From: Microcaldota archaeon
Lineage (GTDB): Archaea; Micrarchaeota; Micrarchaeia; Micrarchaeales; CABMGC01
DNA length: 55,699 bases
NCBI GenBank assembly: GCA_021850625.1
Contig: JAJZLJ010000006.1
Span: 1-55,699, forward strand
Reading direction: 5' to 3'
Shown: one piece after another, positions 1,093 through 41,834 of the stretch
Layout: each line of letters starts with the position of its first letter
Position numbering within the stretch: position 1 is the stretch's first letter
Position numbers and translations under genes: made by a program
The notes under the pieces: generated by a model
Databases searched by the model: none
Told to the model about the DNA's origin: nothing
The model's input: the letters and a program-made list of their open reading frames with translations, nothing else

Positions 1093-2001
1093 ATGGGAAT
1101 CTATGATGAGGATGTTACTGGGGATGTTAAGCTACAAAGTCTTATAGGCTTAGCAAAGCATACTCATGGGCCTAACTGTAGAAGAATGCTTAAGCATGTG
1201 CTTTATGACAACGAAGAGATACTTCTTGAAGTAAGGCAGAGTTATCTTGAAGCATTATCTCCTATAATTCTTGTGGCTACAAATAAAAGGCTAATAACAA
1301 TGTATTCATCTTTCTGGGGACGTTACTTTGGATATGATTTATTTCATCCTACTACATACTCTATAATGCCTTACAAATATATGATAGGTGTATCAATCTC
1401 GAAAGGAAAGGTCTTATCTTCTATAAAGATACATACCCAGAGTTCTATAGATGTGGGTTCACAGATAAAGGATGAAAACGAGATTCATGGGATTCGCTCC
1501 AAAAGTGCAATGCTAATGACAAAGGTAATAGGTGAGATACTTCAATTTACCGAAGAAGAACACAAGAAGTTTTCTCTTAGGGAAGGTTCTTTAGGAAAAG
1601 AAGAAAAATTAACAAAAGTACGCTTAAATAATTCGCAGAAAGTTAATCTTAATGAACTAAATCGTTCATTGATTCAAGAGTTATCCTTAGATAGTGCAAA
1701 GGCAGTTCTTAAGCGCAATAACTCAGTAATCTTATGGTTAGGTTTAGAGCCTGATATCTATGTTAGCAAACTGCTTAACGTAAATCCTACTCAGATAAAG
1801 ATACTAAACCTTCGAGATATAGAACGATATAATGAAGATGAGGCGCTTGCTCTTGACGGTACCGTTATACTTAGTTATGATGGTGTATTATCCATTCATC
1901 TTGCCGAGTTCCTTAAGGATAAGTATGGGGTACTTACATACGTTATAAAAGGAGGCTTATACTCTATATTAGAAGACAAAAGTAAAAATATAGTTCACTG
2001 A
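1093..2001 (+). CDS. PH-like domain joined to a cysteine-less rhodanese-like domain
   Basis: I chose ATG at 1093 because GGTGG at 1083-1087 is a good ribosome binding site for it; GTG at 1081 is the alternative. Residues about 35-160 look like a bacterial/archaeal PH-like (YokE/bPH) domain: a start of the type LYDNEEILLEVRQ, then a strand with 'ATNKRLI' and a strand-rich middle. Residues about 190-300 resemble a rhodanese domain, including the closing V-I-K-G-G turn, but the position of the catalytic Cys is Ser (about residue 261, loop SYDGVLS). It is therefore probably non-catalytic and used for binding. No signal peptide or membrane segment. The gene converges on malic enzyme with a 7-base overlap. 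The PH call is moderate and the rhodanese call rests on pattern only. Confidence 0.6.
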   Translation: MGIYDEDVTGDVKLQSLIGLAKHTHGPNCRRMLKHVLYDNEEILLEVRQSYLEALSPIILVATNKRLITMYSSFWGRYFGYDLFHPTTYSIMPYKYMIGVSISKGKVLSSIKIHTQSSIDVGSQIKDENEIHGIRSKSAMLMTKVIGEILQFTEEEHKKFSLREGSLGKEEKLTKVRLNNSQKVNLNELNRSLIQELSLDSAKAVLKRNNSVILWLGLEPDIYVSKLLNVNPTQIKILNLRDIERYNEDEALALDGTVILSYDGVLSIHLAEFLKDKYGVLTYVIKGGLYSILEDKSKNIVH

Positions 2002-3263
2002 TCAAAAAGCAATCTTTCCATATTTTCATAATGCTTTATTCGCTTTGCAGCTATCTCCTTTATTCTAGAGTGTGTCAGTATTGTTCTTGCATTTTTTTCT
2101 TTTATAGCAGATATACCTACTGCTCCTGCTATGTCTACTGAAAGTTCAAAGAATTTTTTTTCATCAGAAGCGCTTGGTATAATATACTCTCTATTAAGTT
2201 TGTCCTTTACGCTTTCTGCTATAATGATGGCTGCTTCATGAAGCATCTTCATTGTGATCTTTTTAGCTCTAACCTCCAAAAGACCTCTCATTATACCTGG
2301 AAATGCAATTATATTGTTAACTTGATTTGGGGAGTTACTCTTTCCTGTAGCGACTATATAAGCCCCAGCTTTAATAGCATCCTCATAAGAGATCTCAGGC
2401 TCAGGATTTGTCAACGAAAAAACAATCGGCTTCTTATTCATTTTTCTTATCATTTCTTTCTTGAAGTAGCCCTTTTTACCTGTTGTACCTATTATTAAAT
2501 CTGCACCATTGATTGCATCATCTATGCTATAATCGATGTTTTTTGTATTAGTTATTTTAGAGAGCTCTATTTTAAACTCATTCATGTCTTTTTTCCTCCC
2601 TTTTTTTATTACTCCTTCACTGTCAAAAACATACAGATTTTTATATCCTGCAAAATTAAGAAGTTTTGTTATTCCATAACCGGCAGAACCTGCTCCAAAA
2701 ATCACTATTTTGGAGTTTTTAGTTTTGCCTGCAATCTTAAATGCATTTATTAGAGCAGCAAGAGCTACTACTGCTGTACCATATTGGTCATCGTGAAATA
2801 TTGGTATTTCGGATATCTCAGATGCCTTTTTAATTATCCTAAAAACTTTTGGGGACTCTATATCTTCTATGTTTACTGCTGCTATGCTTGGTTCTATTGC
2901 TTTTATGAATTTGATTATATCCTCTTCCTTTTTTGTAGATATGCACATAGGCACTGCGTCTACGCCTCCATATTTTTTAAAAAGCAGCGCCTTACCTTCC
3001 ATTACCGCTAGTCCTGCCTCTGGGCCGATGTCTCCTAAACCTAGTATTCTAGTCCCATCAGATATTATAGCAACAGTATTTCCCTTATTGGTATACTCAT
3101 AAGCAAGAAGCTTATTCTTTTTAATCTCCTCAGAAACATAAGCTACGCCTGGTGTATAATATATAGAAAGATCTTCTCTATTTCTTATTGCAACTTTTCC
3201 TGTGATTTCTACCTTGCCATTATTTTGGAGATGTTTTTTCAACGCTATTTTTTTATCAATCAC
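1995..3263 (-). CDS. NAD(P)-dependent malic enzyme
   Basis: Oxidative decarboxylation of malate to pyruvate and CO2 in the cytoplasm. The 422 residues fit the short prokaryotic malic enzyme. Near the N-terminus are the hallmark YTPGVA, then VAIISDGTRILGLGDIGPEAG, the metal/substrate region IEDIESP followed by FHDDQYGTA, and a Rossmann fold starting IVIFGAGSAGYG; later LTNPEPEIS. The start is GTG at 3261-3263; no better upstream start is seen. It is the last gene of a minus-strand run behind tfb and a small membrane protein (gap 11 bases), so it may be co-transcribed with them. With the citrate synthase operon and the Mqo-like protein further along, malate seems a central metabolite here. Confidence 0.95.
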   Translation of the reverse strand: MIDKKIALKKHLQNNGKVEITGKVAIRNREDLSIYYTPGVAYVSEEIKKNKLLAYEYTNKGNTVAIISDGTRILGLGDIGPEAGLAVMEGKALLFKKYGGVDAVPMCISTKKEEDIIKFIKAIEPSIAAVNIEDIESPKVFRIIKKASEISEIPIFHDDQYGTAVVALAALINAFKIAGKTKNSKIVIFGAGSAGYGITKLLNFAGYKNLYVFDSEGVIKKGRKKDMNEFKIELSKITNTKNIDYSIDDAINGADLIIGTTGKKGYFKKEMIRKMNKKPIVFSLTNPEPEISYEDAIKAGAYIVATGKSNSPNQVNNIIAFPGIMRGLLEVRAKKITMKMLHEAAIIIAESVKDKLNREYIIPSASDEKKFFELSVDIAGAVGISAIKEKNARTILTHSRIKEIAAKRIKHYENMERLLFDQ

Positions 3264-11185: not shown

Positions 11186-11271
11186 AGAATCAACTAACCT
11201 ATAACAGTTCAATACACATTTATAGAAAAACATATAAATACCTTTCATCTCCATTTATAAACCGTGGTGTA
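11186..11271. promoter_or_regulatory. Shared divergent promoter of rpl21e and tbp
   Basis: Only 86 bases separate the two starts. The block atataaata at 11232-11240 lies 32-40 bases before the tbp ATG and can be read as a TATA box in that direction; its complement is at a similar distance from the rpl21e start. GGTG at 11266-11269 is a close ribosome binding site for tbp. If TBP controls its own promoter this is the place to look. Confidence 0.5.
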
Positions 11272-11604
11272 ATGTCAAAAAAACCAACTCATGAAAAACA
11301 AGGAAAGAAATCAATACTTCATCCGGATTTCAAGATAGAAAACATTGTTGCTAGCGCAGATCTCGGCGTTGAGCTTGATCTTTATGCTATAGCAAAATCA
11401 TCTCCAGATGTTGACTACGAGCCTGAGCAGTTTCCTGGTGCTATATGTAAAATACATGTACCTAAAACTGCGTTGTTGCTTTTTAAGAACGGAAAGATAA
11501 TCTGTACCGGTTCTAAGACAGAAGCAGATATAAAGCGTTCAATAGATCAGGTAATAAAGATAGTGGAGCATCATGTCTTAGAAAGAAAAGAAGTCAAGGA
11601 GTAA
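11272..11604 (+). CDS. tbp: Single-repeat (half-size) TATA-box-binding protein
   Basis: Archaeal TBP is normally about 180 residues made of two similar repeats that form a saddle. This protein has 110 residues and only one repeat, about residues 22-100: IENIVASADLG, then YEPEQFPG, PKTALLLF, NGKIICTGSK and a last helix. Both DNA-kinking phenylalanines of a repeat are present (F54 and F71, 17 apart, the family spacing). It has a mixed character, with an N-terminal part like repeat 1 and YEPEQFPG plus an acidic tail like repeat 2. The stop is genuine: only 43 T-rich non-coding bases separate it from the next gene, so no second repeat is hidden by a frameshift. It would have to form a homodimer or pair with a second half encoded elsewhere. 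Confidence 0.88.
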   Translation: MSKKPTHEKQGKKSILHPDFKIENIVASADLGVELDLYAIAKSSPDVDYEPEQFPGAICKIHVPKTALLLFKNGKIICTGSKTEADIKRSIDQVIKIVEHHVLERKEVKE

Positions 11605-11647
11605 ACTTATTTTTTTTAATTTCTAATTTCTTTATTTTATTTTTATC

Positions 11648-12271
11648 TCATTTTTTAATCTTATTCTTTTCAAATTTTCTTATTATGAAAATATAAATTA
11701 GATAAAGAACAATTGCTAATCCGGCAATAGCTATTACTATTGTTCCTATACTGCTTTGGCTTAACGCATAATATCCAAAAAGCAAAAGCATCACATCCCA
11801 TATTGCGGAACCTAAAATCGAGTAAAAATAAAACTGTTTTTTAGGCATCTGTGCAAATCCTGCGGGAAAACTTATTAGTCCCCTAAGTACCGGAACCATA
11901 CGCATAGAAAAAACAGCAAGAACTCCATTCCTGTTAAACCAACTATCAAAGTTATCAAGTGTATCCTTTTTTATTCTAAAAAACGAAAGATGCTTATAAA
12001 AAATGTCCTTGCTTATAAAGTAGGCTATAAAGTAATCTATACTTATACCTATTATGCCTGCTACTATTGAGACAATCAAAACAATATAAAAATTAAAAAT
12101 TCCTTGGGCTACAAAAATACCTGCAAGAGGAAGTATCACCTCGCTTGGTATAGGCAACGAAGCAGATTCAAGTATCATAAGTATAAATATAGCAAGATAG
12201 CCATACTTACTTAGAAGAGCTCCGGCAGAAGCTCCTGTAAATATGGACAATATATTAGACATAAAAATCAT
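11648..12271 (-). CDS. DedA-family membrane protein
   Basis: 207 residues with five or six membrane segments. DedA/SNARE-associated signatures are visible: ESASLPIPSEVILPLAGIF in the first third, G-x-x-x-G helices, then RMVPVLRGLISFPAGFA and the helix beginning GSAIWD. The motif [FMR]-x-R-x(2)-P-x(2)-R is present as RMVPVLR. Members take part in lipid flipping and membrane homeostasis, sometimes linked to proton-driven transport. ATG 12262 is an alternative start. It diverges from ksgA, with about 60 A/T-rich bases between. Confidence 0.9.
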   Translation of the reverse strand: MIFMSNILSIFTGASAGALLSKYGYLAIFILMILESASLPIPSEVILPLAGIFVAQGIFNFYIVLIVSIVAGIIGISIDYFIAYFISKDIFYKHLSFFRIKKDTLDNFDSWFNRNGVLAVFSMRMVPVLRGLISFPAGFAQMPKKQFYFYSILGSAIWDVMLLLFGYYALSQSSIGTIVIAIAGLAIVLYLIYIFIIRKFEKNKIKK

Positions 12272-17163: not shown

Positions 17164-18786
17164 ATGGAGCAGTTCAAGAATGAGTTTACTTATCGTAAGT
17201 TTATCGATGCAGGTAAGGAGCAAGAGTTTGATAATTTATTCGATAAGGCCGTTGAAAAAGTAAAAATAGAGTTATTAGGTAAAAAATATCCCATAATAAT
17301 CAACGGAGAGGAGATATACTTACAAAACGAGTTATCAGAAAGATCGCCAATAGATGGCTCTATTCTAGGGGTTTTTCAAAAAGCTTCTAAAAGCGAGGCA
17401 GTAGCTGCTATAGAATCGGCTTCTAAGGCTTTTGAAGAGTGGAGTCAGCTTGATTACAAAAAAAGAGTATCTATTTTCAAGAAGGCTGCGCAGCTATTAT
17501 CTGAAAGAAAGTTTGATGTTGCTGCTGTTCTTAGCATGGAAAATGGAAAGACTAGGTATGAATCTATAGGAGAGGTTGATGAAGCAATAGATTTTATGAA
17601 TTATTATGCTTTAGATTTTGAAAGAAATAAGGGCTATATACGAAAAGGAGTAATAAAAGGAACATCGTCTAAAGTACCTGCAGGATTTCAAGGAGCTCCA
17701 GGAAGTGAAGAAATTGTAAAGATACTAATGAAACCTTACGGCGTTTTTGGTATTATAGCACCATTTAACTTTCCAGTTTCTATATCTGCTGGGATGAGCG
17801 TTGGAGCTATGATAACTGGAAATACCGTTGTGTTCAAGCCTTCTTCTACTGATAATATGTCTATGCTAACTGGTTATTTATTATACAAAATATTTTCCGA
17901 TTCTGGTATTCTTCCTGGAGTTTTTAATTACATAACAGGTCCAGGTTCTGAGATAGGCGCTGAACTGTCTTCGAATAGGTTGGTAAGTGGAATAGCGTTT
18001 ACAGGTTCTAAAACTACTGGCATATCGATGATTGCGTCTAGTTACGCTATAGGAAAGCAGACCGTTTTTGTTGTAGAGATGGGCGGTAAAAACCCTACTA
18101 TAATATCTAAATATGCAGATATAAACAAGGCCGTATCAGGAATAGCAAGTGCTTCTTTTGGTTATAGCGGTCAAAAATGCAGTGCATGTTCAAGGGTCTA
18201 TGTTAATAAAGACATAAAAGAAGAGTTCATTAAAAAATTAATTGAAAAGGTATCATTATTCAAAATAGGAAATCCTCTACAAAAGGATAACTTTATTGGA
18301 CCTTTGATAAGTAACATTGCGCTTTTACGTTATAAAGAGGCTGTTGAAGAGGTTAAAAAATCTGGAAAACTTTTATTTGGCGGAAACATCATCGATAATG
18401 GATTAAAAGGTGCATATGTTGAGCCTGTAGTTGCAGAACTTCCTTCTGATAATATACTTTTCAAAAAAGAGTTGTTCCTTCCATTTTTAGTAATAGATAC
18501 TTACTCTGAAATAGAAGAAGCGCTTAAAAAAGCAAATGATACTGAGTATGGTCTAACTGCTGGTTTTTACAGCTCAAGAAGTTCTGAAATAAAGTATTTT
18601 TTGAAGAATATACTTTCTGGAGTTGTATATGTGAATAGGGAAGTAAGTGCAACAACAGGTGCTATAGTTGGTTTTCATACGTTTGTAGGTTGGAAAGGAA
18701 GTGGATTGACCGGAAAAGGCACTGGAAGCAGGTTCTATCTACAGCAGTTTATGAGAGAACAAAGCCAGGCTATTGTAGAGGAATGA
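17164..18786 (+). CDS. Delta-1-pyrroline-5-carboxylate dehydrogenase (aldehyde dehydrogenase)
   Basis: Oxidises glutamate semialdehyde to glutamate with NAD(P). 540 residues, the size of stand-alone P5C dehydrogenases (RocA/PutA C-domain). Visible are the N-terminal arm NEFTYRKF, the cofactor region FGIIAPFNFPVSI followed by NTVVFKPSS, FTGSKTTG, the general base in VEMGGKNP, and the catalytic Cys in GQKCSACSRVYV. The latter sequence is characteristic of P5C dehydrogenases rather than other aldehyde dehydrogenases. No proline dehydrogenase is in the window. The DUF192 gene follows immediately and may be co-transcribed. Confidence 0.9.
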   Translation: MEQFKNEFTYRKFIDAGKEQEFDNLFDKAVEKVKIELLGKKYPIIINGEEIYLQNELSERSPIDGSILGVFQKASKSEAVAAIESASKAFEEWSQLDYKKRVSIFKKAAQLLSERKFDVAAVLSMENGKTRYESIGEVDEAIDFMNYYALDFERNKGYIRKGVIKGTSSKVPAGFQGAPGSEEIVKILMKPYGVFGIIAPFNFPVSISAGMSVGAMITGNTVVFKPSSTDNMSMLTGYLLYKIFSDSGILPGVFNYITGPGSEIGAELSSNRLVSGIAFTGSKTTGISMIASSYAIGKQTVFVVEMGGKNPTIISKYADINKAVSGIASASFGYSGQKCSACSRVYVNKDIKEEFIKKLIEKVSLFKIGNPLQKDNFIGPLISNIALLRYKEAVEEVKKSGKLLFGGNIIDNGLKGAYVEPVVAELPSDNILFKKELFLPFLVIDTYSEIEEALKKANDTEYGLTAGFYSSRSSEIKYFLKNILSGVVYVNREVSATTGAIVGFHTFVGWKGSGLTGKGTGSRFYLQQFMREQSQAIVEE

Positions 18787-26085: not shown

Positions 26086-27450
26086 TCAATGTCTTTGTTT
26101 TTTTATTAAAAGTTTGTATTCCGCTTCATTATCGCAAAATAGCTGCATAAATTTTTCTTTATAAAATTTCTTATCAAGATACTCTGTAGCGCTAAGTGTG
26201 TATTTCAATGCTTCTTTAAGGCAAGAACTTGCACCAGGCGAAGGAGCCATAGAAAACTCTATTCCATCCCCCCGCAAATCAACTACGCCCAAAATCAATC
26301 TCCTCATCTTTTTATCTATTATCTGTGGTCTTATTCCTCCTCCTTTTTTATAAAATTTTATATCGTTGTATTTTAAACTTGGGACTATTTTATTTACTTC
26401 TTCTTTCAAGAAATAATATTTACCTAGATCTGGTATTGAATAGATAAGATTTTTCTCTATTATGTGCTGTATATCTTTATCTTCTGTTATGTTAATTAAA
26501 CTCTCAACTGTTTCTTTATCAAGGCCCAAAGCCTTTATGTATTTATATGTAGACATTATGTTTGAGTGTTCTAAAAACGGGACGATATTTACTGTAGGTC
26601 CATATCTTGTTATTTTTTTATCTGCAATATCCACATCAGCATGCACTGCAGCAAACGGTATTCCACCTTTTTGAACTCTATATACCTTTCCCTTTATAAC
26701 ATTTTTAGAATAATAAAAATTACCTCCAACAGAAAGCATTGACAACTCTTTTCCATAACCTAATTTTTTGGCGAAGTACAAACTATATCCTCCAGCTGCA
26801 AAAACAATAAATCTTCCATTATAACTAGATTTATCTGTTTTTATAACATATTTGTTATTTTTTCTCTCTACATCTATAGTTTCTTCCTTTAAGATTACCT
26901 TTATTCGTTTCTTATTTTTAAATGAGGATTTAACAAAAGAAGAAGCCAACATACCAAAATTTACCATATGTCCATCTTCAGAGTAAGCTGCAATTATCTT
27001 CTCATCTTTGCTCCTTCCTTTAATAACGTACGGTTCAACTTTTAATATTTCTGATGCATTTATTACTTTAATCTTAGGAAAAAGCGAAATAAACTTATCA
27101 TCGTATCTTTTTATTATTTCATCTACTTCTTCGCTACCTACTCCGAGTACCATTTTTTGTACCGGTTTTATCAAGTCACCAGAGTTTTGTTTCTTAATTT
27201 GTTTTGTATATTTTAGAATAAGATGTGAGGCTGTTCGCGTTTCTATTATTTTATCTGTATTATAATTGGTTTCTATATCTCCTACGTGCAAGGTTTGGCT
27301 ATTATTCCAGCTTCCAGAAGAGCCATTTCCTATTCCATTTTTTTCTATTAATAATATATTATCTATATCAGTAAATTCTGAAAGCATATACAACAATGAG
27401 GTGCCTATGACTCCCCCGCCTATAATTATTACTTCATATTCATTTTCCAT
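26086..27450 (-). CDS. FAD-dependent malate:quinone oxidoreductase-like protein
   Basis: 454 residues. The FAD fold starts YEVIIIGGGVIGTSLLYML and has the acidic strand end LLIEKN; SGSWNNSQTLHVGDIETNY follows where Mqo has its N-N-x-x-T-x-H substrate region. Later come FVVAAGGYS-like (IVFAAGGYS) and, at the C-terminus, DGIEFSMAPSPGASSCLKEA. This arrangement fits malate:quinone oxidoreductase better than L-2-hydroxyglutarate oxidase, but the two are related and I cannot separate them with certainty. It diverges from the citrate synthase operon, so oxidation of malate to oxaloacetate feeding citrate synthase is a natural reading. Confidence 0.75.
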   Translation of the reverse strand: MENEYEVIIIGGGVIGTSLLYMLSEFTDIDNILLIEKNGIGNGSSGSWNNSQTLHVGDIETNYNTDKIIETRTASHLILKYTKQIKKQNSGDLIKPVQKMVLGVGSEEVDEIIKRYDDKFISLFPKIKVINASEILKVEPYVIKGRSKDEKIIAAYSEDGHMVNFGMLASSFVKSSFKNKKRIKVILKEETIDVERKNNKYVIKTDKSSYNGRFIVFAAGGYSLYFAKKLGYGKELSMLSVGGNFYYSKNVIKGKVYRVQKGGIPFAAVHADVDIADKKITRYGPTVNIVPFLEHSNIMSTYKYIKALGLDKETVESLINITEDKDIQHIIEKNLIYSIPDLGKYYFLKEEVNKIVPSLKYNDIKFYKKGGGIRPQIIDKKMRRLILGVVDLRGDGIEFSMAPSPGASSCLKEALKYTLSATEYLDKKFYKEKFMQLFCDNEAEYKLLIKKQRH

Positions 27451-27590: not shown

Positions 27591-28736
27591 ATGAAGAATA
27601 TTAATAAAAAATCTCAGGATAAAAACGGTGGTCTTGAAGGTGTGATAGCCGGAGAAACCAAAATCTCATATATAGACGGAGCAAAAGGGAAGCTATTCTA
27701 TCGCGGATACTCTATAGAGGATATAGCATCTAATTGTAGTTTTGAAGAAACCTCATATCTTTTAATATACGGAAAACTTCCAAACAAAACTGAGCTTGAG
27801 TCTTTTTCAGCAAAACTTAAGAGAAACAGAGAACTTTCAAAACACACAATAAAGATGATACATACATTTACAAAAAAAATGAGTTCTATGGAGGCTTTAA
27901 GGACGGTTGTCAGTTCTTTATCCTCTAATGACAAAGACTCTCGTATATCTTCATACGAAGAAAAATTAAATACTGGACTTTCAATAATAGCAAAGATGCC
28001 CACTATAGTAGCATATCATCATAGGATAAAAAACTCAAAGATGCCTATACATCCGAATCCAAAATTATCGCATGCTGAAAATTTTCTTTATATGTTAACT
28101 GGAAAATTTCAGGATATAGACGACGCAGAGATCCTAGATAAAGATTTTGTATTACATGCTGAACATGGATTCAATGCTTCATCATTTTCCGTAAGAGTTA
28201 CGGTTTCAACATTAAGTGATGTTCATTCGGCATATACTACTGGAATAGGAACACTTAAAGGACCGTTACATGGCGGAGCAGCAACCGAGGTGCTTTCAAT
28301 GTTAAAAAAGATAAATAAACCAGAAAATGTTACTCCATTTGTAAACAAGATTTTATTATCTCATGGAAGGATTATGGGTTATGGACATAGAATATACAAA
28401 ACTTATGATCCAAGAGCTAAAATATTAAAAAAAATGGCAGAAAGATTAAGTATTAAAAATAATGATACAAAATTTATTCAGATTGGGGGAAAACTTGAAA
28501 AAATAATGGCAGAAAAAAAGAACATATATCCGAATGTTGATTTTTATTCTGCTATAGTTTATCATAATTTAAGACTTTCAAATGAGTTATATTCTCCTAT
28601 ATTTGCAATGGCGAGAAGTTCTGGATGGCTTGCACATATATTAGAGCAATATCAAAATAACAGATTAATAAGGCCACTTGAAAAGTACAATGGAGCTTTA
28701 AATCTTAAATTTGTTGAAATTTCAAAAAGAACGTAA
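27591..28736 (+). CDS. gltA: Citrate synthase (type II, archaeal/methylcitrate-like)
   Basis: Condenses oxaloacetate with acetyl-CoA. 381 residues, the size of archaeal and 2-methylcitrate synthases. Motifs: GLEGVIAGETKISYIDG, KLFYRGYSIEDIA, catalytic His in GPLHGGAATEVL, second His in MGYGHRIYKTYDPRA and Asp in YPNVDFYSAIVYH; the C-terminal end has FAMARSSGWLAHILEQ. Because a PrpD-family protein is in the operon, methylcitrate synthase activity is also possible. Isocitrate dehydrogenase next door argues for the citrate reaction. First gene of the operon. Confidence 0.93.
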   Translation: MKNINKKSQDKNGGLEGVIAGETKISYIDGAKGKLFYRGYSIEDIASNCSFEETSYLLIYGKLPNKTELESFSAKLKRNRELSKHTIKMIHTFTKKMSSMEALRTVVSSLSSNDKDSRISSYEEKLNTGLSIIAKMPTIVAYHHRIKNSKMPIHPNPKLSHAENFLYMLTGKFQDIDDAEILDKDFVLHAEHGFNASSFSVRVTVSTLSDVHSAYTTGIGTLKGPLHGGAATEVLSMLKKINKPENVTPFVNKILLSHGRIMGYGHRIYKTYDPRAKILKKMAERLSIKNNDTKFIQIGGKLEKIMAEKKNIYPNVDFYSAIVYHNLRLSNELYSPIFAMARSSGWLAHILEQYQNNRLIRPLEKYNGALNLKFVEISKRT

Positions 28737-28740
28737 TAAA

Positions 28741-29826
28741 ATGAAAAAATACACAATTACCGCTGTACTGGGGGATGGGATTGGTCCTGAAGTAATAGGT
28801 TCGGCTATAGAATGCATTAATGCAGTTTCTAAAAAAAATAACATTTCAATAACTTGGGAAAAGAAAATAGCAGGAGAAGAAGCAATAACAGAATATAATT
28901 CTGTACTCCCTATCGAAACGTTAAACTCTATAAAAAAAAATAAAGTTGCACTTAAAGGACCAATAACTACTCCTCTTGGAAATGGTTTTAGAAGCGTCAA
29001 CGTGGAGCTTCGAAAAAAGCTCGGACTTTTTGCAAACATTAGACCTGCAAAAAATATTCAAGGAGTGCAAAGCAAATTTTCTAATGTAGATTTAATAGTT
29101 ATACGGGAGAACACGGAAGATCTTTATGGTGGTATAGAATTTAGAGAAAACTCTATTTCTTCAAGAAGATTAATACAATTTGCAGAACATGAATCAAAAA
29201 TAAACATACAAAGAGGAAGTGCAATAGCGTTAAAAACTATATCAAATACTGCTACAAAAAGAATAGCTGAGTTCGCTTTTTCGTATGCTCAAAAGAAACA
29301 AAGGAAAAAAATAACTATTATACATAAATCTAATATCTTAAAGTATACTGATGGACTTTTTGTAAGAGAATCTGAAAAAGTAGCTAAAAATTTTACTTCT
29401 ATATTATGTGATAATATGGTTGTAGATAATGCCTGTTCTAAGTTGGTTACAAAACCAGAACTTTTTGATATTATCTTATGTCCTAATTTATACGGTGACA
29501 TACTTTCTGACTTATGTTCCGGACTTGTCGGTGGCCTTGGACTTTCCCCAAGCGCGAATATAGGTAATACTATATCTATATTTGAACCTGTCCACGGTTC
29601 AGCTCCAAAACATGCTGGCATGAATGATGTTAATCCTTCAGCGGCAATATTATCTGGTGTAATGCTTTTAAATCATCTTGGAGAAAATGCAGCTGCAAAG
29701 TCTCTCGAAGACGCTGTTTTTTCTGTATTGAAAGATAAAAAATGTGTTACCTATGACATAGATCCGAAGAATCCTGCATCAACATCGGATATGACTATGG
29801 CGATTATCAAAAAGATAAAAAAGTGA
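28741..29826 (+). CDS. icd: Isocitrate dehydrogenase family enzyme
   Basis: 361 residues from ATG 28741, four bases after the gltA stop; an upstream in-frame start at 28711 would lie inside gltA. Motifs: VLGDGIGPEVIG, the substrate loop NGFRSVNVELRKKLGLFANIRP (the S-x-N arrangement selects isocitrate rather than isopropylmalate), IRENTEDLYGG, metal-binding NLYGDILSDL and the cofactor loop HGSAPKHAGMNDVNP. Lys after the Pro and the later Val resemble the NADP-using enzymes more than the NAD type, though the adjacent His is atypical, so the cofactor is uncertain. Produces 2-oxoglutarate. Confidence 0.9.
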   Translation: MKKYTITAVLGDGIGPEVIGSAIECINAVSKKNNISITWEKKIAGEEAITEYNSVLPIETLNSIKKNKVALKGPITTPLGNGFRSVNVELRKKLGLFANIRPAKNIQGVQSKFSNVDLIVIRENTEDLYGGIEFRENSISSRRLIQFAEHESKINIQRGSAIALKTISNTATKRIAEFAFSYAQKKQRKKITIIHKSNILKYTDGLFVRESEKVAKNFTSILCDNMVVDNACSKLVTKPELFDIILCPNLYGDILSDLCSGLVGGLGLSPSANIGNTISIFEPVHGSAPKHAGMNDVNPSAAILSGVMLLNHLGENAAAKSLEDAVFSVLKDKKCVTYDIDPKNPASTSDMTMAIIKKIKK

Positions 29827-29830
29827 AATT

Positions 29831-31192
29831 ATGACATTAGCAGAAGATATAAGCGAGTATGCGAATTCTTTGTCTTATAATAGGATTCCTAAAAAAACAA
29901 TAGATATTACTAAAGATGCGGTAATAGACACATTCGGATGTGCTTTAGGAGCTGAAAAAGCAATACCTGTACTCATTGCTAAAAAAACTATAAAAAAGAG
30001 TAATAAGGGATCATCTATTCTACACTCTACTGAAAAAGCTAGCTCAGAAGACGCAGCTTTTGTAAATGGAGTTATGGCCAGATATCTTGATTATAATGAT
30101 TCTTATGAGTCAAAGGAGTTCGCCCACCCTAGTGATAATATACTTCCATTATTTGCTGTAGCAGAAGAAGCAGGCAGATCCGGCAAAGATTTAATTACTG
30201 CTATAATACTTGCATATGAAATCCAATGCCGTCTTTCAACATCTGCAAGTTTGTGGAAAAAGGGTTGGGACCATACTAGCTATGGTCTTGTAAGTGTAGC
30301 AGCTGCATCATCTTTTCTAATGGACTCGGGAGTAAGAAAAACTACACATGCAATAAATATAGCATTAAACTCTCACATAGCTATGCGACAGGTTCGCGCC
30401 GGAGAGCTTTCGATGTGGAAGGCAATGTCTTTTCCTAACGCTGCAAAGAATGCCATATTTTCTGCAAAATTAGCAAATAATGGTATTACTGGTCCGTCTC
30501 CTATTTTCGAAGGAGAAATGGGTTTCTGGAAGCAGGTAAGCGGAAAGTTTAATTTAAATATAAATGATTTTGGTAACAAGAAGAATGAGTTTTTAATAGA
30601 CAAGCGTATAACAAAATATTATCCAGCTGAGATACGATCTCAAAGCGCAATAACTGCTGCCATAAACTTAAAAAAGAAAATAAATGATATTGATAAAATC
30701 TCAAAGATAGAAATATTAACTACCGAAAGCGGTTATAAGGTTTTGGGAAAGGACAAAGAAAAATGGAACCCAAAAACCAAAGAAACTGCAGATCATAGCC
30801 TTCCTTTTATTGTCTGTTCTGCTTTAATATATGGCAATATAACTCCAGAATCTTACTCTGAAAAAAGATTATCTGATAACAAAATAAAAAGATTGCTTGA
30901 CATAACTATAGTTAAAGAAAAAAAAGAATTTACCACTATATATCCTTCATGCATACCTAATGAGATAAAAGTAACTATAGATAATATAAATGGCAAAAAA
31001 GTAATAGACAAAAAGGTTCTTTACCAAAAAGGGCACCCTAAAAATCCAATGAACAAAGAAGAGCAGAAACAAAAATTTATTGCTCTTTCTTCTAACTCTT
31101 TAAATAAAGAAAAAACATTAATTTTACTTAAAGAATTATGTAATCTTGAAAGTATTAAAAGCATAACGCACTTATTTGATTTATGTATGTGA
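29831..31192 (+). CDS. MmgE/PrpD-family dehydratase, candidate aconitase substitute
   Basis: 453 residues of the 2-methylcitrate dehydratase family: VIDTFGCALGA, ASSEDAAFVNGVMARYLDYNDSY, HPSDNILPLFAVAE, GWDHTSYGLVSVAAA, and MWKAMSFPNAAKNAIFSAKLA. It sits directly after citrate synthase and isocitrate dehydrogenase, where an aconitase would be needed. In E. coli the residual aconitase activity called AcnC was assigned to PrpD, so this family can interconvert citrate and isocitrate weakly. No methylisocitrate lyase is nearby, which weakens a propionate role. The gap to icd is four bases. Activity on citrate is inferred. Confidence 0.9.
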   Translation: MTLAEDISEYANSLSYNRIPKKTIDITKDAVIDTFGCALGAEKAIPVLIAKKTIKKSNKGSSILHSTEKASSEDAAFVNGVMARYLDYNDSYESKEFAHPSDNILPLFAVAEEAGRSGKDLITAIILAYEIQCRLSTSASLWKKGWDHTSYGLVSVAAASSFLMDSGVRKTTHAINIALNSHIAMRQVRAGELSMWKAMSFPNAAKNAIFSAKLANNGITGPSPIFEGEMGFWKQVSGKFNLNINDFGNKKNEFLIDKRITKYYPAEIRSQSAITAAINLKKKINDIDKISKIEILTTESGYKVLGKDKEKWNPKTKETADHSLPFIVCSALIYGNITPESYSEKRLSDNKIKRLLDITIVKEKKEFTTIYPSCIPNEIKVTIDNINGKKVIDKKVLYQKGHPKNPMNKEEQKQKFIALSSNSLNKEKTLILLKELCNLESIKSITHLFDLCM

Positions 31193-31196
31193 TTTT

Positions 31197-32036
31197 ATGG
31201 AAAAAAGAGCATTTGATTTTCTTAATATATACGAATTGCCTAAAAAACCAAGAAAAAAAGGCATAATAGAGATACGAGGACCTTATTATTCCTCTATAAC
31301 TTATGATTATCTAAAGGGTATTTTACATGACTGGAGCGAGTACTTTGATGGTTATAAATTCGCCGGAGGTTCGGAGCGATTTCTTTCAAGAAACACAGTG
31401 AAAGATATTCTTAATGCATGCCATGATCATGATGTTTATGTATCTACTGGGGGTTTTGTGGAACGTATACTAGTTCAAGGCCCTAAGGCTGTAGATCAGT
31501 ACATAAAAGAGTGCAAATCTTTGGGTTTTGATGTCATAGAAGTATCTAGCGGTTTTGTTGATATTTCTTTGGATGATAAGGTTGAGATAGTAAAGCAGGT
31601 ACAGAAAATGGGTATGAAAGCAAAGCCTGAGGTTTCGTTTATGTATGATGCCGGTGGAGGTACTCATAGAGTTGGGTATGATGGAGAAATGAAAATGCGA
31701 AAATTGGATGATGTTATATTAGAGTTAAGATCTCATATCAAAGCAGGCGTTGATGTAATAATGATTGAGTCTGAAGGTCTTACTGAAGATCTTCCTCCTG
31801 AAAAATGGCGTATAGATTTAATTAAAAAAATAACCAATGAGTTTGGATTCGAAAAATTTATGTTTGAAGCATCTGATCCTCCAGTATTTAAGTGGTACCT
31901 TAAAAAATTTGGCCGTGATGTAAATTTATTTATAGATTACTCACAACTTGTAGAGTTCAATGCGTGGCGTGCCGGACTATGGGGCGATGAAGATATTTGG
32001 AAAGGCAAAAAATTTAGTTATAGATCTAAAAAATAG
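31197..32036 (+). CDS. ComA/Hsa32-family (phosphosulfolactate synthase-like) protein
   Basis: 279 residues from ATG 31197, preceded by GTGATTTT. TIM-barrel family of phosphosulfolactate synthase: YDYLKGILHDWSEYFDGYKFAGG, VSTGGFVERI, CKSLGFDVIEVSSGFVDISL, a Glu in KPEVSF, IKAGVDVIMIESEG and FEASDPP. In methanogens ComA adds sulfite to PEP to begin coenzyme M synthesis; elsewhere, as in plant Hsa32, the family has other, unclear roles. There is no ComB or ComC here, so coenzyme M synthesis is unlikely. Placement in a TCA operon suggests a reaction on a PEP- or enolate-like acid. Confidence 0.85.
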   Translation: MEKRAFDFLNIYELPKKPRKKGIIEIRGPYYSSITYDYLKGILHDWSEYFDGYKFAGGSERFLSRNTVKDILNACHDHDVYVSTGGFVERILVQGPKAVDQYIKECKSLGFDVIEVSSGFVDISLDDKVEIVKQVQKMGMKAKPEVSFMYDAGGGTHRVGYDGEMKMRKLDDVILELRSHIKAGVDVIMIESEGLTEDLPPEKWRIDLIKKITNEFGFEKFMFEASDPPVFKWYLKKFGRDVNLFIDYSQLVEFNAWRAGLWGDEDIWKGKKFSYRSKK

Positions 32037-32051
32037 CCTAATGGCGAAGAT

Positions 32052-33458
32052 ATGACAAATGCTTCTAAACAAAAAGATAAAGAAGATGTTTCTATAGATG
32101 AAGAGTTTGATTGGAAACTTTATCCAGAAACAGAAAAATTTTTATCTTCAATCGTAGCAGATTTCCTACTAAATAATCACTTTGCAAGTGAGCTTTCAAA
32201 GAAAATGTCAACAGAAACTTCAACTAAATTTTTTAATTGGATAGACTATGCAATAATTCCGGAATCTAAAACAAGCAAAGAATTACTTTTAAAGCTTGGT
32301 TTTACATTATTTGCTCCAGTAGATAAAAAATGTAAATACGGTAAGCTTTTCAAGCACAGCAGATCTTATTTTTTCCCTATTATACTTGGGAAAGAGGATA
32401 AAATTGAAATAGCGTTAAAACCAGAAGAGCTTGACAGTTTCATACAAGCTTTTGGCATTAATGCGGTTATAGATGGTAAACCATTTTCACGATTTAGGAA
32501 GGCTGTCATTTCAGTAGAAAAAAACTATGTACTTTCCGCTGTAGAACGAAGAGGGTATAATGGGTTTTCAACAGATTCCAAAAATGATATCTTAGAATAC
32601 TTAGATGTCCTAAGTATGTTTTTTTCAAGGCAACGTATATTTAATAGTGACGAAGAAGGCATTATATTCACAGAAAAACTAATTTCATCTGCACTTAAAC
32701 TTTTAGATAATGCAAGAGTATCAGATGCATTCTTCAGATCTGAAAGGGCTTATTGGCAAAGAAGAAATCTGGCTGGACAAATACAGAAAGCAAGGCAGGA
32801 TAAGCTAGGCCTTGGATGGGGTAATCAGGACCATCATACGTATCGATCTTCAAGGAAAAACTTTTCAAAGATGATACATATATTCGAGTTGATGGGTTAT
32901 AATTGTAGGGAAAAATACTACGCTGGAGATCAGGCCAGATGGGGAGCTCAGATAATGGAGCATGATGTTTGTGATATAGTTGTATTTACTGACGTTGATC
33001 TTTATCCTGAAGAAACAAAAATTGACTTTCCACACAAAGGATTAGAACAGAGAAAAATGCTTGGCACTGTCGGTTTATGGGTTGGTCTTCATGGAGAAAG
33101 TATACTTCAAGCCGGCATGCATCATTTAGAGGCTAGATTTGATTTTGAAGGTCTTAAATCTGATTTACCAAAATTTGGCATAACAGTGATGCCTCCTTTT
33201 TCAAATTTCGAGTTTTTAAAACAAGCATTTACTTTTGGTGAGATATGGAAGGTGGAAAAATCAAGGGCAGATATTTTACTTTCAAATTCTTTTATAACTA
33301 AAGATCAGTATAATATGTTTATTAAAAATGGAGCTATAGGTAGTCACATGGAAAATCTTGAAAGGACAAAAGGCTTCAAGGGTTTCAATAAAAGTTCAGT
33401 TACAAAAATTATAAAAGCTACAGATCCAAGAAAAGCTCAAGTTTCTATTGGGGCATAA
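32052..33458 (+). CDS. Unrecognised 468-residue protein, possibly two VOC-like modules
   Basis: Soluble, single chain, no signal. Two segments look alike in outline: residues about 58-110 (FFNWIDYAIIPES, then a helix ending LLKLGFTLF) and about 256-320 (WGNQDHHTYRSS, a helix ending ELMGYNCRE, then DIVVFTDVDLYPEE). 'Strand with His, helix, LGF/MGY, strands' recalls the vicinal-oxygen-chelate fold, in which the His of DHH and a Glu such as that in MHHLEARF could bind metal. I could not match it to a named family; the related-looking DUF1338 enzymes do not share its motifs. It is packed between the ComA-like and dehydrogenase genes (gaps 15 and 12 bases), so it should act in the same pathway. 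Confidence 0.6.
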   Translation: MTNASKQKDKEDVSIDEEFDWKLYPETEKFLSSIVADFLLNNHFASELSKKMSTETSTKFFNWIDYAIIPESKTSKELLLKLGFTLFAPVDKKCKYGKLFKHSRSYFFPIILGKEDKIEIALKPEELDSFIQAFGINAVIDGKPFSRFRKAVISVEKNYVLSAVERRGYNGFSTDSKNDILEYLDVLSMFFSRQRIFNSDEEGIIFTEKLISSALKLLDNARVSDAFFRSERAYWQRRNLAGQIQKARQDKLGLGWGNQDHHTYRSSRKNFSKMIHIFELMGYNCREKYYAGDQARWGAQIMEHDVCDIVVFTDVDLYPEETKIDFPHKGLEQRKMLGTVGLWVGLHGESILQAGMHHLEARFDFEGLKSDLPKFGITVMPPFSNFEFLKQAFTFGEIWKVEKSRADILLSNSFITKDQYNMFIKNGAIGSHMENLERTKGFKGFNKSSVTKIIKATDPRKAQVSIGA

Positions 33459-33470
33459 ATAGATGTTTTG

Positions 33471-34412
33471 ATGTTAAATAAAAAAAATATACATATCTTA
33501 GTAAATAATCCAGAATACTTTGACAAATATGCAATAAAGATACTTAGCAGTATTGGAAATGTAACAGCAAAAAACATTGATTATGATGAACTTTTGGAAA
33601 AGATATCAATTTTTGATATAATTATCATAAGGGTAGATACAAAAATTACAAAACAATTGCTAGACAAAGCCAAAAAATTAAGGCTAATAGGATCTGCAAC
33701 AACCGGCCTTAATCACATAGATACTAAATATGCAAAAGAAAAAGGAATAAGGATAATAAGCCTACACGGAACACACACTATATCTACTGCACAGCATACT
33801 ATGGCTTTAATATTTTCTCTTTCAAGAAAGATACCTTGGGCATTTGAAAATCTTAAGAAAGGAAAGTGGGATAGACATAAATTTATAGGAACTCAGTTAA
33901 ACGGAAAGACCATAGGCATAATAGGATTAGGTAGAATAGGATCTCAAGTAGCTAAATACTCAAAAGCGTTTGGTATGAACGTTATAGCGTATGATCCTTT
34001 TATTAAAAAAAGCAATCTTGCAACTCTAGTTACATTAAATTATCTTCTAAAAAATTCTGATATAGTATCTCTTCATCCTTCACTTACAAATAAAACAAAG
34101 AATATGATACAATTAAAGGAATTTAAGTTAATGAAGAAAACTGCATTTTTGATTAATACATCAAGAGGGGAAATCTTAGATTCTGATGCTCTTTTACTGT
34201 CTTTAAAAAAATGTATTATATCCGGGGCAGCGTTGGATGTTTTTATAGATGAACCATTACTAGGCAAAAACAATAGATTTGTAAAATATGCATTAAGAAA
34301 TAAAAATCTTTTAATTACACCTCACATAGGTGCTTCTACAAAAGAGGCCGTACATGCTGCTGGAATAGAAATAGCAAATAATATAAAAAAAGAGCTTAAT
34401 CTTCTGAAATAA
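33471..34412 (+). CDS. D-2-hydroxyacid dehydrogenase (SerA/PGDH-like)
   Basis: 313 residues from ATG 33471. Pattern of the NAD-dependent D-isomer hydroxyacid dehydrogenases: SATTGLNHIDTKYAKEKGI, cofactor loop IGIIGLGRIGSQVAK, the catalytic Arg in INTSRGEILD, Glu in VFIDEPL and His in ITPHIGAST. The length matches enzymes without the ACT regulatory domain. As last gene of the operon it may make serine precursors, or reduce a 2-oxo acid such as 2-oxoglutarate or the product of the neighbouring genes. Sequence alone does not define the substrate. Confidence 0.9.
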   Translation: MLNKKNIHILVNNPEYFDKYAIKILSSIGNVTAKNIDYDELLEKISIFDIIIIRVDTKITKQLLDKAKKLRLIGSATTGLNHIDTKYAKEKGIRIISLHGTHTISTAQHTMALIFSLSRKIPWAFENLKKGKWDRHKFIGTQLNGKTIGIIGLGRIGSQVAKYSKAFGMNVIAYDPFIKKSNLATLVTLNYLLKNSDIVSLHPSLTNKTKNMIQLKEFKLMKKTAFLINTSRGEILDSDALLLSLKKCIISGAALDVFIDEPLLGKNNRFVKYALRNKNLLITPHIGASTKEAVHAAGIEIANNIKKELNLLK

Positions 34413-40936: not shown

Positions 40937-41078
40937 ATAATTACCAATTAGTATTACAACAATAACTTTAATATACCGAACTTATTAGTTACATACTACC
41001 TATAGACAAAAAGCTATAAAAAGATATAACTTTATTGATATCTGTTGTAGTTAATAGCTATTGGATTTGGTAAAGAAA

Positions 41079-41834
41079 ATGAGACAAAAAAACATGACAG
41101 GGATAAAAGGACTTGACAGAATGTTACACGGGGGACTTCCTGTCGGTAATCAAATAATAATAGAGGGAGGTCCTGGATCCGGCAAAACATTACTATGTTT
41201 TGAGTTTTTATATAAAGGCGCAATAAAAGGAGAAAACGGCGTTCTATTTTCTTTCGAAGAAGATTCAAATAGCATAATCGAAAATGCAAAAACTGCCTTT
41301 AGTTCATTTACAGATATAGATTCATTAATAAAAGAAGGAAAATTAATAATATTAGGTTCAGAAGAAACAAAACAGTACATACAAAAAAATAGGGAAGGCA
41401 ATGCTTATACCTTTGGAGGATTCATATCTGAAATAGACTCTGTAACAAAAACACATGCCGCAAAAAGAATAGCTATAGACTCTATCTCGGTAATTAGGCT
41501 CTTCATAACAGATCCTTATGATTATAGGTCCTTATCTACGAGTTTACTTTCAGTTTTAAGCAGGCAAGGTATAACCTCATTAATAACAATGGAGCAAGAA
41601 GCTTCAGAAAAATCAAATATATTTTTCCAACCAGAGTCGTTTATATATGATGGTTTGATACTACTTTTCTTTACCGGTAATGATTTAGAAAATAGAATTC
41701 CTACTATAGAGATTGTAAAGATGAGAGGAACAGAACATATGTATACTGCCGTACCCTATGAGATAACCTCGTCAGGTTTCAACATTTTACTGCTCAATAC
41801 CTCTGAAAAGAGATTTGTAGATACTCCAGATTAG
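41079..41834 (+). CDS. KaiC/RadA-superfamily ATPase (RAD55-like)
   Basis: 251 residues from ATG 41079, which is preferred to TTG 41061 because GGTAAAG precedes it. Layout of the single-domain archaeal KaiC-like ATPases: TGIKGLDRMLHGGLPVGNQIIIEG, Walker A GGPGSGKTLLCFEFL, FSFEED, Walker B RIAIDSISVIRLF, and the C-terminal KMRGTEH. Family members act in recombination or signalling. No kinase or second RecA domain is present. It converges with a COG1709-type regulator. Confidence 0.85.
   Translation: MRQKNMTGIKGLDRMLHGGLPVGNQIIIEGGPGSGKTLLCFEFLYKGAIKGENGVLFSFEEDSNSIIENAKTAFSSFTDIDSLIKEGKLIILGSEETKQYIQKNREGNAYTFGGFISEIDSVTKTHAAKRIAIDSISVIRLFITDPYDYRSLSTSLLSVLSRQGITSLITMEQEASEKSNIFFQPESFIYDGLILLFFTGNDLENRIPTIEIVKMRGTEHMYTAVPYEITSSGFNILLLNTSEKRFVDTPD

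Follow-up and report, generated by a model that had tools for sequence, protein, structure and literature searches.

Aconitase is the classic oxygen-sensitive iron–sulfur enzyme of central metabolism. ComA, the phosphosulfolactate synthase, adds sulfite to C3 of phosphoenolpyruvate via a magnesium-stabilised enediolate. Two further enzymes bear on the locus considered here. Escherichia coli PrpD is described as carrying out a one-step dehydration, without rehydration, and as using citrate weakly (PMC9468356). HglS, a DUF1338 protein, converts 2-oxoadipate to D-2-hydroxyglutarate, is inactive on 2-oxoglutarate and uses His70, Arg74, His226 and Glu294 (PMC7286885). Micrarchaeota have been described with near-complete tricarboxylic acid (TCA) cycles that include aconitate hydratase, and with methylisocitrate lyase in seven genomes (PMC5864196). 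We analysed a 55,699-nucleotide stretch of a Microcaldota archaeon (contig JAJZLJ010000006.1, assembly GCA_021850625.1; hereafter the window, whose numbering is used throughout), where six genes on the plus strand form an operon at 27591–34412. On balance we favour reading the first four as the first half of the TCA cycle, in which two non-homologous proteins free of iron–sulfur clusters, one of the MmgE/PrpD family and one ComA-like, take over from aconitase, and the last two as an appended module linked to lysine breakdown.

27591–28736, plus strand: citrate synthase (CS), cit_synth_II subfamily (Citrate_synt, 447 bits; TIGR01800, 468.5 bits for a cut-off of 421.3)
28744–29826, plus strand: isocitrate dehydrogenase-like protein (IDH; PF00180, Iso_dh, 353 bits)
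29831–31192, plus strand: MmgE/PrpD protein of clade I (PrpD-I), proposed citrate dehydratase (PF03972/PF19305, 240.8/133.8 bits for the N- and C-terminal parts)
31197–32036, plus strand: ComA-like TIM barrel protein, proposed cis-aconitate hydratase (PF02679, 219.9 bits)
32052–33458, plus strand: U468, a 468-residue protein of predicted VOC fold, proposed Fe(II) 2-oxoadipate dioxygenase (structure model and neighbours; no family match)
33468–34412, plus strand: SerA-like NAD D-2-hydroxyacid dehydrogenase (HADH), proposed to turn 2-hydroxyglutarate into 2-oxoglutarate (PF02826/PF00389; 2-Hacid_dh_C, 185 bits)

The original prediction had described this layout well. All six open reading frames (ORFs) were located, their gaps (7, 4, 4, 15 and 9 bp) fall within the 4 to 15 bases it gave, and Pfam recovered the family it had assigned to each gene, with none for the 468-residue ORF. 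The IDH gene starts at ATG 28744 rather than at the listed TTG 28711; its product matches NAD-IDH and other IDH models of NCBIfam, with every score under the equivalog cut-off.

PrpD clades and the place of aconitase

The host genome (807,689 bases, the window being its contig 29) gave no match to aconitase (PF00330), in a search that was positive in 14 of 14 control genomes. It gave none either to the methylisocitrate lyase PrpB (PF13714) or to ComB (PF04029); ComC was not searched for. Aconitase accompanied by methylisocitrate lyase, which would point to propionate metabolism, had been set beforehand as the result that would speak against the prediction; both were looked for, and both are absent.

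Searching the 196 genomes of the class with the PrpD of the window gave 20 matches. Eleven, at about 48% identity or above (including a 258-residue fragment where a contig ends), make up clade I, which is monophyletic with support of 100/99; the nine others, at 37–42%, make up clade II. Every one of the 11 clade I loci has a ComA-like gene with its PrpD, and all have CS and IDH as well, except where a contig end cuts the locus. In clade II loci PrpD stands with CS (none in the G142 stretch) and there is no ComA-like gene, while methylisocitrate lyase is found in nine of the nine genomes, at or close to the PrpD locus; these loci therefore belong to the methylcitrate cycle. Besides one 20-bit match under the cut-off, the lyase is missing from all 11 clade I genomes. 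Aconitase, too, is found in none of the latter, and it is present in eight of the nine clade II genomes, the ninth having only a stop-ridden fragment. This remnant, in G114 (C20:423–689, three in-frame stops), appears to be a decaying aconitase, in a genome with PrpD-II and PrpB and no IDH match.

These counts bear on the idea that CS and PrpD of the operon are methylcitrate cycle enzymes. The CS does belong to the 2-methylcitrate/citrate synthase II subfamily, and relatives do carry a locus combining PrpD-II, PrpB and CS. However, PrpB separates the two clades completely, and the operon has an IDH and no lyase. With neither PrpB nor aconitase in the host genome, where it differs from the setting of 2-methylcitrate dehydratase PrpD, propionate catabolism was rejected as very improbable. 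The protein itself has the PF03972/PF19305 domains of the PrpD/MmgE/IRG1 family, with conserved residues matching those of solved enzymes (D87, D90, H99, H148, K197 and H322, invariant across 10 clade I and 13 other aligned sequences). It departs from that family by its obligate ComA-like partner and by residue 269, which is Arg in the 10 aligned clade I proteins where His is usual (the 13 others have His, Asn or Tyr). Its scores are well under the PrpD equivalog cut-offs (191.9, 148 and 128 bits for 950, 575 and 458, respectively).

The ComA-like gene is present in exactly the 11 PrpD-I genomes, always adjoining PrpD-I, and in no other of the 196. Within the two nearest families, 47 genomes with IDH divide into 37 with aconitase (including G089, whose divergent matches may be isopropylmalate-type enzymes) and 10 with PrpD-I and the ComA-like gene; none has both and none has neither (P = 2e-10, uncorrected for shared ancestry). 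Order-wide, among 164 genomes, the ComA-like gene is found in 20 and aconitase above the cut-off in 77, with no overlap (P = 1e-6, ignoring shared ancestry). As both states are present inside genera g5, g20 and g28, more than one aconitase swap is likely.

The most direct argument for function comes from three genomes (G124, G173 and G195; loci L157–L159). There CS and IDH, orthologous to those of the window and 51–57% identical to them, are directly followed by an ORF of 927–943 residues at the position of the PF00330 match, i.e. aconitase A. In these operons CS is preceded by an ORF that resembles malate dehydrogenase, judging by its 60 N-terminal residues. In the lineage of the window the slot of aconitase holds PrpD and the ComA-like gene: the swap occurred in place. 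The pair and aconitase A have in common this position in a CS–IDH operon and, putatively, the net reaction; they differ in that aconitase A is a single iron–sulfur protein, unrelated in sequence and absent from every searched genome with the PrpD–ComA module. A PrpD-family protein standing where aconitase would be expected, as originally proposed, thus finds strong support in the absence of aconitase from the genome, in the exclusive distribution and in the swap.

A proposed two-protein route from citrate to isocitrate

In the proposed route CS would make citrate, PrpD-I would dehydrate it to cis-aconitate, the ComA-like protein would add water to yield isocitrate, and IDH would convert the latter to 2-oxoglutarate. 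From the exclusion and the in-place swap we infer that the pair takes citrate to isocitrate, and it very probably performs the aconitase step. The division of labour is a more delicate matter. The prediction had relied on the weak AcnC activity of PrpD: replacement of aconitase stood, but this activity would be insufficient alone, PrpD having been described as dehydrating without rehydration (PMC9468356). Since the characterised enzyme dehydrates only, replacing aconitase requires a hydratase. The strongest candidate is the ComA-like protein, and we lean slightly towards this assignment. Addition of water to cis-aconitate would be of the same type as the ComA reaction: in each, a nucleophile is added at the position beta to a carboxylate.

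The ComA-like protein shares with phosphosulfolactate synthase its Pfam family (PF02679) and a similarity to 1QWG over the barrel. It differs by its score against the ComA equivalog TIGR03849 (73.6 bits for a cut-off of 280), by having invariant G-x-GTH and ESEG-x-TEDLP where ComA has its GKK and RESGKGKG stretches, by the lack of ComB in the host and by its linkage to PrpD. Coenzyme M synthesis was rejected as its role, ComB being present in only one of the 11 PrpD-I genomes and absent from the host. A homocitrate version of the cycle, with CS acting on 2-oxoglutarate, was also considered, and no evidence for it was found.

Could PrpD-I be a full aconitase by itself? The ComA-like protein would then be an accessory: it might stabilise PrpD, say, or convert trans-aconitate into cis-aconitate, much as PrpF acts on the methyl analogue. 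NCBIfam names E. coli PrpD a bifunctional 2-methylcitrate dehydratase/aconitate hydratase, and R269 is unique to clade I. By contrast, the characterised PrpD stops short of rehydration to the iso compound (PMC9468356), and one would not expect an accessory protein to turn up in PrpD-I genomes without exception and next to PrpD in other phyla as well, which makes this alternative rather unlikely.

Plasmids yielded 20 full-length ComA-like genes (39–48% identical). Seventeen have a same-strand MmgE/PrpD gene within 7.2 kb, 11 of these within about 0.75 kb, in haloarchaea, Methylosinus, Methylocystis and Salinibacter. On a plasmid of Halorussus vallis PrpD is some 34 kb distant, on that of Natrinema halophilum the ComA-like gene has no PrpD neighbour, and one further record, unannotated, is without PrpD among the matches listed. 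Linkage outside Micrarchaeota is common, not absolute, and the recurrence of these neighbours on plasmids of other phyla makes a two-gene functional unit likely. Elsewhere, a Variovorax PrpD (43% identical) has no annotated ComA-like neighbour, and a Burkholderia one (40%) comes from a record without annotation. In plasmid loci L161–L166, L169 and L170, MmgE/PrpD lies by a ‘phosphosulfolactate synthase’, and some of these pairs are beside genes for DsrE, a sulfurtransferase, Dps or respiratory proteins.

Such surroundings recall sulfonate synthesis, in which PrpD would form an unsaturated acid and ComA add sulfite to it, the absence of aconitase being incidental. Sulfite is what the known ComA uses, and DsrE and sulfurtransferase genes lie near some plasmid pairs. 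Yet this scheme leaves IDH without an aconitase and both the perfect exclusion and the in-place swap unexplained; moreover, ComB is absent from 10 of the 11 genomes, and neither GKK nor RESGKGKG is conserved. We deem it improbable. Replacement of aconitase by the pair has to be weighed, to be sure, with several points that count against it. The host genome is only 83% complete. The haloarchaea and methanotrophs that carry the pair, whose PrpD is only about 30–34% identical and falls in a separate clade, are expected to have an ordinary aconitase; the pair may do something else there. DsrE and sulfurtransferase, near some plasmid pairs, would suit sulfite addition. Finally, we know of no hydratase activity in the ComA family.

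U468, its dehydrogenase partner and the surroundings of the operon

The six-gene order, together with a divergent Mqo-like gene, is also found in three other genomes (L028, L032 and L029, the last being the same contig as L015), so that the operon is not an assembly accident. The nearest named relatives are Candidatus Micrarchaeota bins (L028, L032), with a ComA-like protein 91–93% identical. The prediction had proposed to check whether the six genes stay together in relatives, and at these loci they do. It had also set unlinking of the last three genes in relatives as a result that would speak against it; this comparison splits its unit, and the grouping of the last three into one undescribed route is wrong. 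The ComA-like gene is inseparable from PrpD-I (11 of 11, and on plasmids as well), and U468 and HADH occur alone or with other partners, as a separate, portable, separately inherited pair appended to the operon. Two genes outside the operon, both announced by the prediction, were found:

26086–27450, minus strand: Mqo-like FAD 2-hydroxyacid oxidoreductase, divergent from the operon (Pfam Mqo, 99 bits)
1995–3263: malic enzyme

The Mqo-like gene adjoins the CS–IDH–PrpD–ComA module in L015, L128, L132, L133 and L134 too, and may substitute there for malate dehydrogenase. At two clade I loci (L132, L134) IDH is only about 37% identical to that of the window and CS 42–44%; PrpD and ComA were apparently retained there while CS and IDH were exchanged.

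U468 is present in 14 of the 196 genomes of the class (one copy being a 30-residue fragment), independently of aconitase. Sequence searches found no relative in Pfam, NCBIfam or PDB. Homologs, studied in the best 80 of 218 stretches, come from Micrarchaeota, Planctomycetes including Brocadia, Verrucomicrobia, environmental Chlamydiae and Thorarchaeota. The neighbour of U468 is the same SerA-like dehydrogenase at 15 of the 80 loci and a GlcD-like FAD dehydrogenase at 11 others; both partners oxidise D-2-hydroxyacids, pointing to a compound of this class as the product of U468. The verrucomicrobial U468 gene comes after those for L-lysine 6-transaminase (583 bits for a cut-off of 520.8) and L-piperidine-6-carboxylate (P6C) dehydrogenase (788 bits for a cut-off of 730), so that U468 is probably an HglS-like 2-oxoadipate dioxygenase. 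At L020 (G116, 11190–11951), U468 and HADH are separated by a gene of 253 residues that belongs to the same cluster as the RecA/KaiC-like ORF of the window (41061–41834).

An AlphaFold2 model from a deep alignment (pLDDT 92.6, pTM 0.91) superseded a first one (13 sequences, pLDDT 74) of the same fold class with weaker matches. Its top Foldseek matches are hydroxymandelate synthase (2r5v) and HPPD (E 1.7e-9, global TM only about 0.25–0.39), and it also matches the DUF1338 structure 3LHO (E 2.4e-6, TM 0.46 by target length, rmsd 6.9). The model thus places U468 in what is predicted to be a new VOC-fold family, nearest to hydroxymandelate synthase and HPPD. Among residues resembling a metal site, H261-x3-R265 and H357/H358 are invariant, and E434 is found in all rows of the alignment but one, which is gapped. 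U468 resembles HglS (PF07063) in its predicted VOC-type fold, in an H-x3-R motif with further His and Glu residues as candidates for the triad, in its lysine-degradation neighbours and in its D-2-hydroxyacid dehydrogenase partner. It differs in that it has no PF07063 match, 3LHO being the closest DUF1338 structure among the 50 matches listed, and in its presence in archaea and PVC bacteria in which no PF07063 protein turned up (none elsewhere in 30 U468 genomes).

By analogy with HglS, U468 would be an Fe(II) dioxygenase turning 2-oxoadipate from lysine breakdown, with O2, into 2-hydroxyglutarate and CO2, and HADH would oxidise the hydroxyacid to 2-oxoglutarate; in that case all parts of the operon would lead to the product of its own IDH. 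That 2-oxoadipate is the substrate seems to us slightly better than an even proposition. Alternatively, U468 might convert 2-oxoglutarate to malate and CO2, and CS, PrpD/ComA, IDH, U468 and Mqo or HADH would make up a five-step, oxygen-using short TCA cycle. All the genes required are together in the window and in three relatives, and in a published set of Micrarchaeota genomes only one has succinyl-CoA synthetase (PMC5864196). We hold this cycle to be quite unlikely, as bacterial U468 sits with lysine-degradation genes, HglS is inactive on 2-oxoglutarate (PMC7286885) and most U468–HADH pairs are not linked to CS or IDH.

The preferred 2-oxoadipate dioxygenase has its own difficulties: TM-scores of the matches are low, and there is no sequence-level link between U468 and HglS. 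Anammox bacteria and Thorarchaeota, which carry U468, are usually regarded as anaerobes, in which an enzyme that depends on O2 would be out of place. The search of the host genome gave a single match to class III aminotransferases (L184, 4042–5403), 45% identical to the one next to U468 in Scalindua (L075), and did not establish a lysine 6-transaminase. A P5CDH-like aldehyde dehydrogenase is encoded in the window at 17164–18786, with a 64% identical copy near U468–HADH in L021; a role in the lysine pathway was rejected for it, as its identity to the P6C dehydrogenases found with U468 is no more than about 28%.

Significance for central metabolism

We found no report of PrpD and ComA replacing aconitase in the open-licence literature, which is weak evidence of absence. 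If true, a natural iron–sulfur-free replacement of aconitase by two unrelated proteins would have no precedent in the literature searched. A broader generalisation is somewhat less likely than not: that a TIM barrel of the ComA family can be a metal-dependent hydratase, that PrpD and ComA form a portable, oxygen-tolerant, iron–sulfur-free aconitase of archaea and bacteria, and that new VOC-fold 2-oxoadipate dioxygenases exist alongside. The replacement, if confirmed, would assign a function to the ‘phosphosulfolactate synthase’ proteins that plasmids of several phyla encode beside ‘MmgE/PrpD’. It would also put right how the TCA cycle of Micrarchaeota is annotated, and provide an oxygen-resistant tool for engineering. 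U468, in turn, offers a testable function for an unnamed family shared by Micrarchaeota, Thorarchaeota, anammox bacteria, Verrucomicrobia and environmental Chlamydiae.

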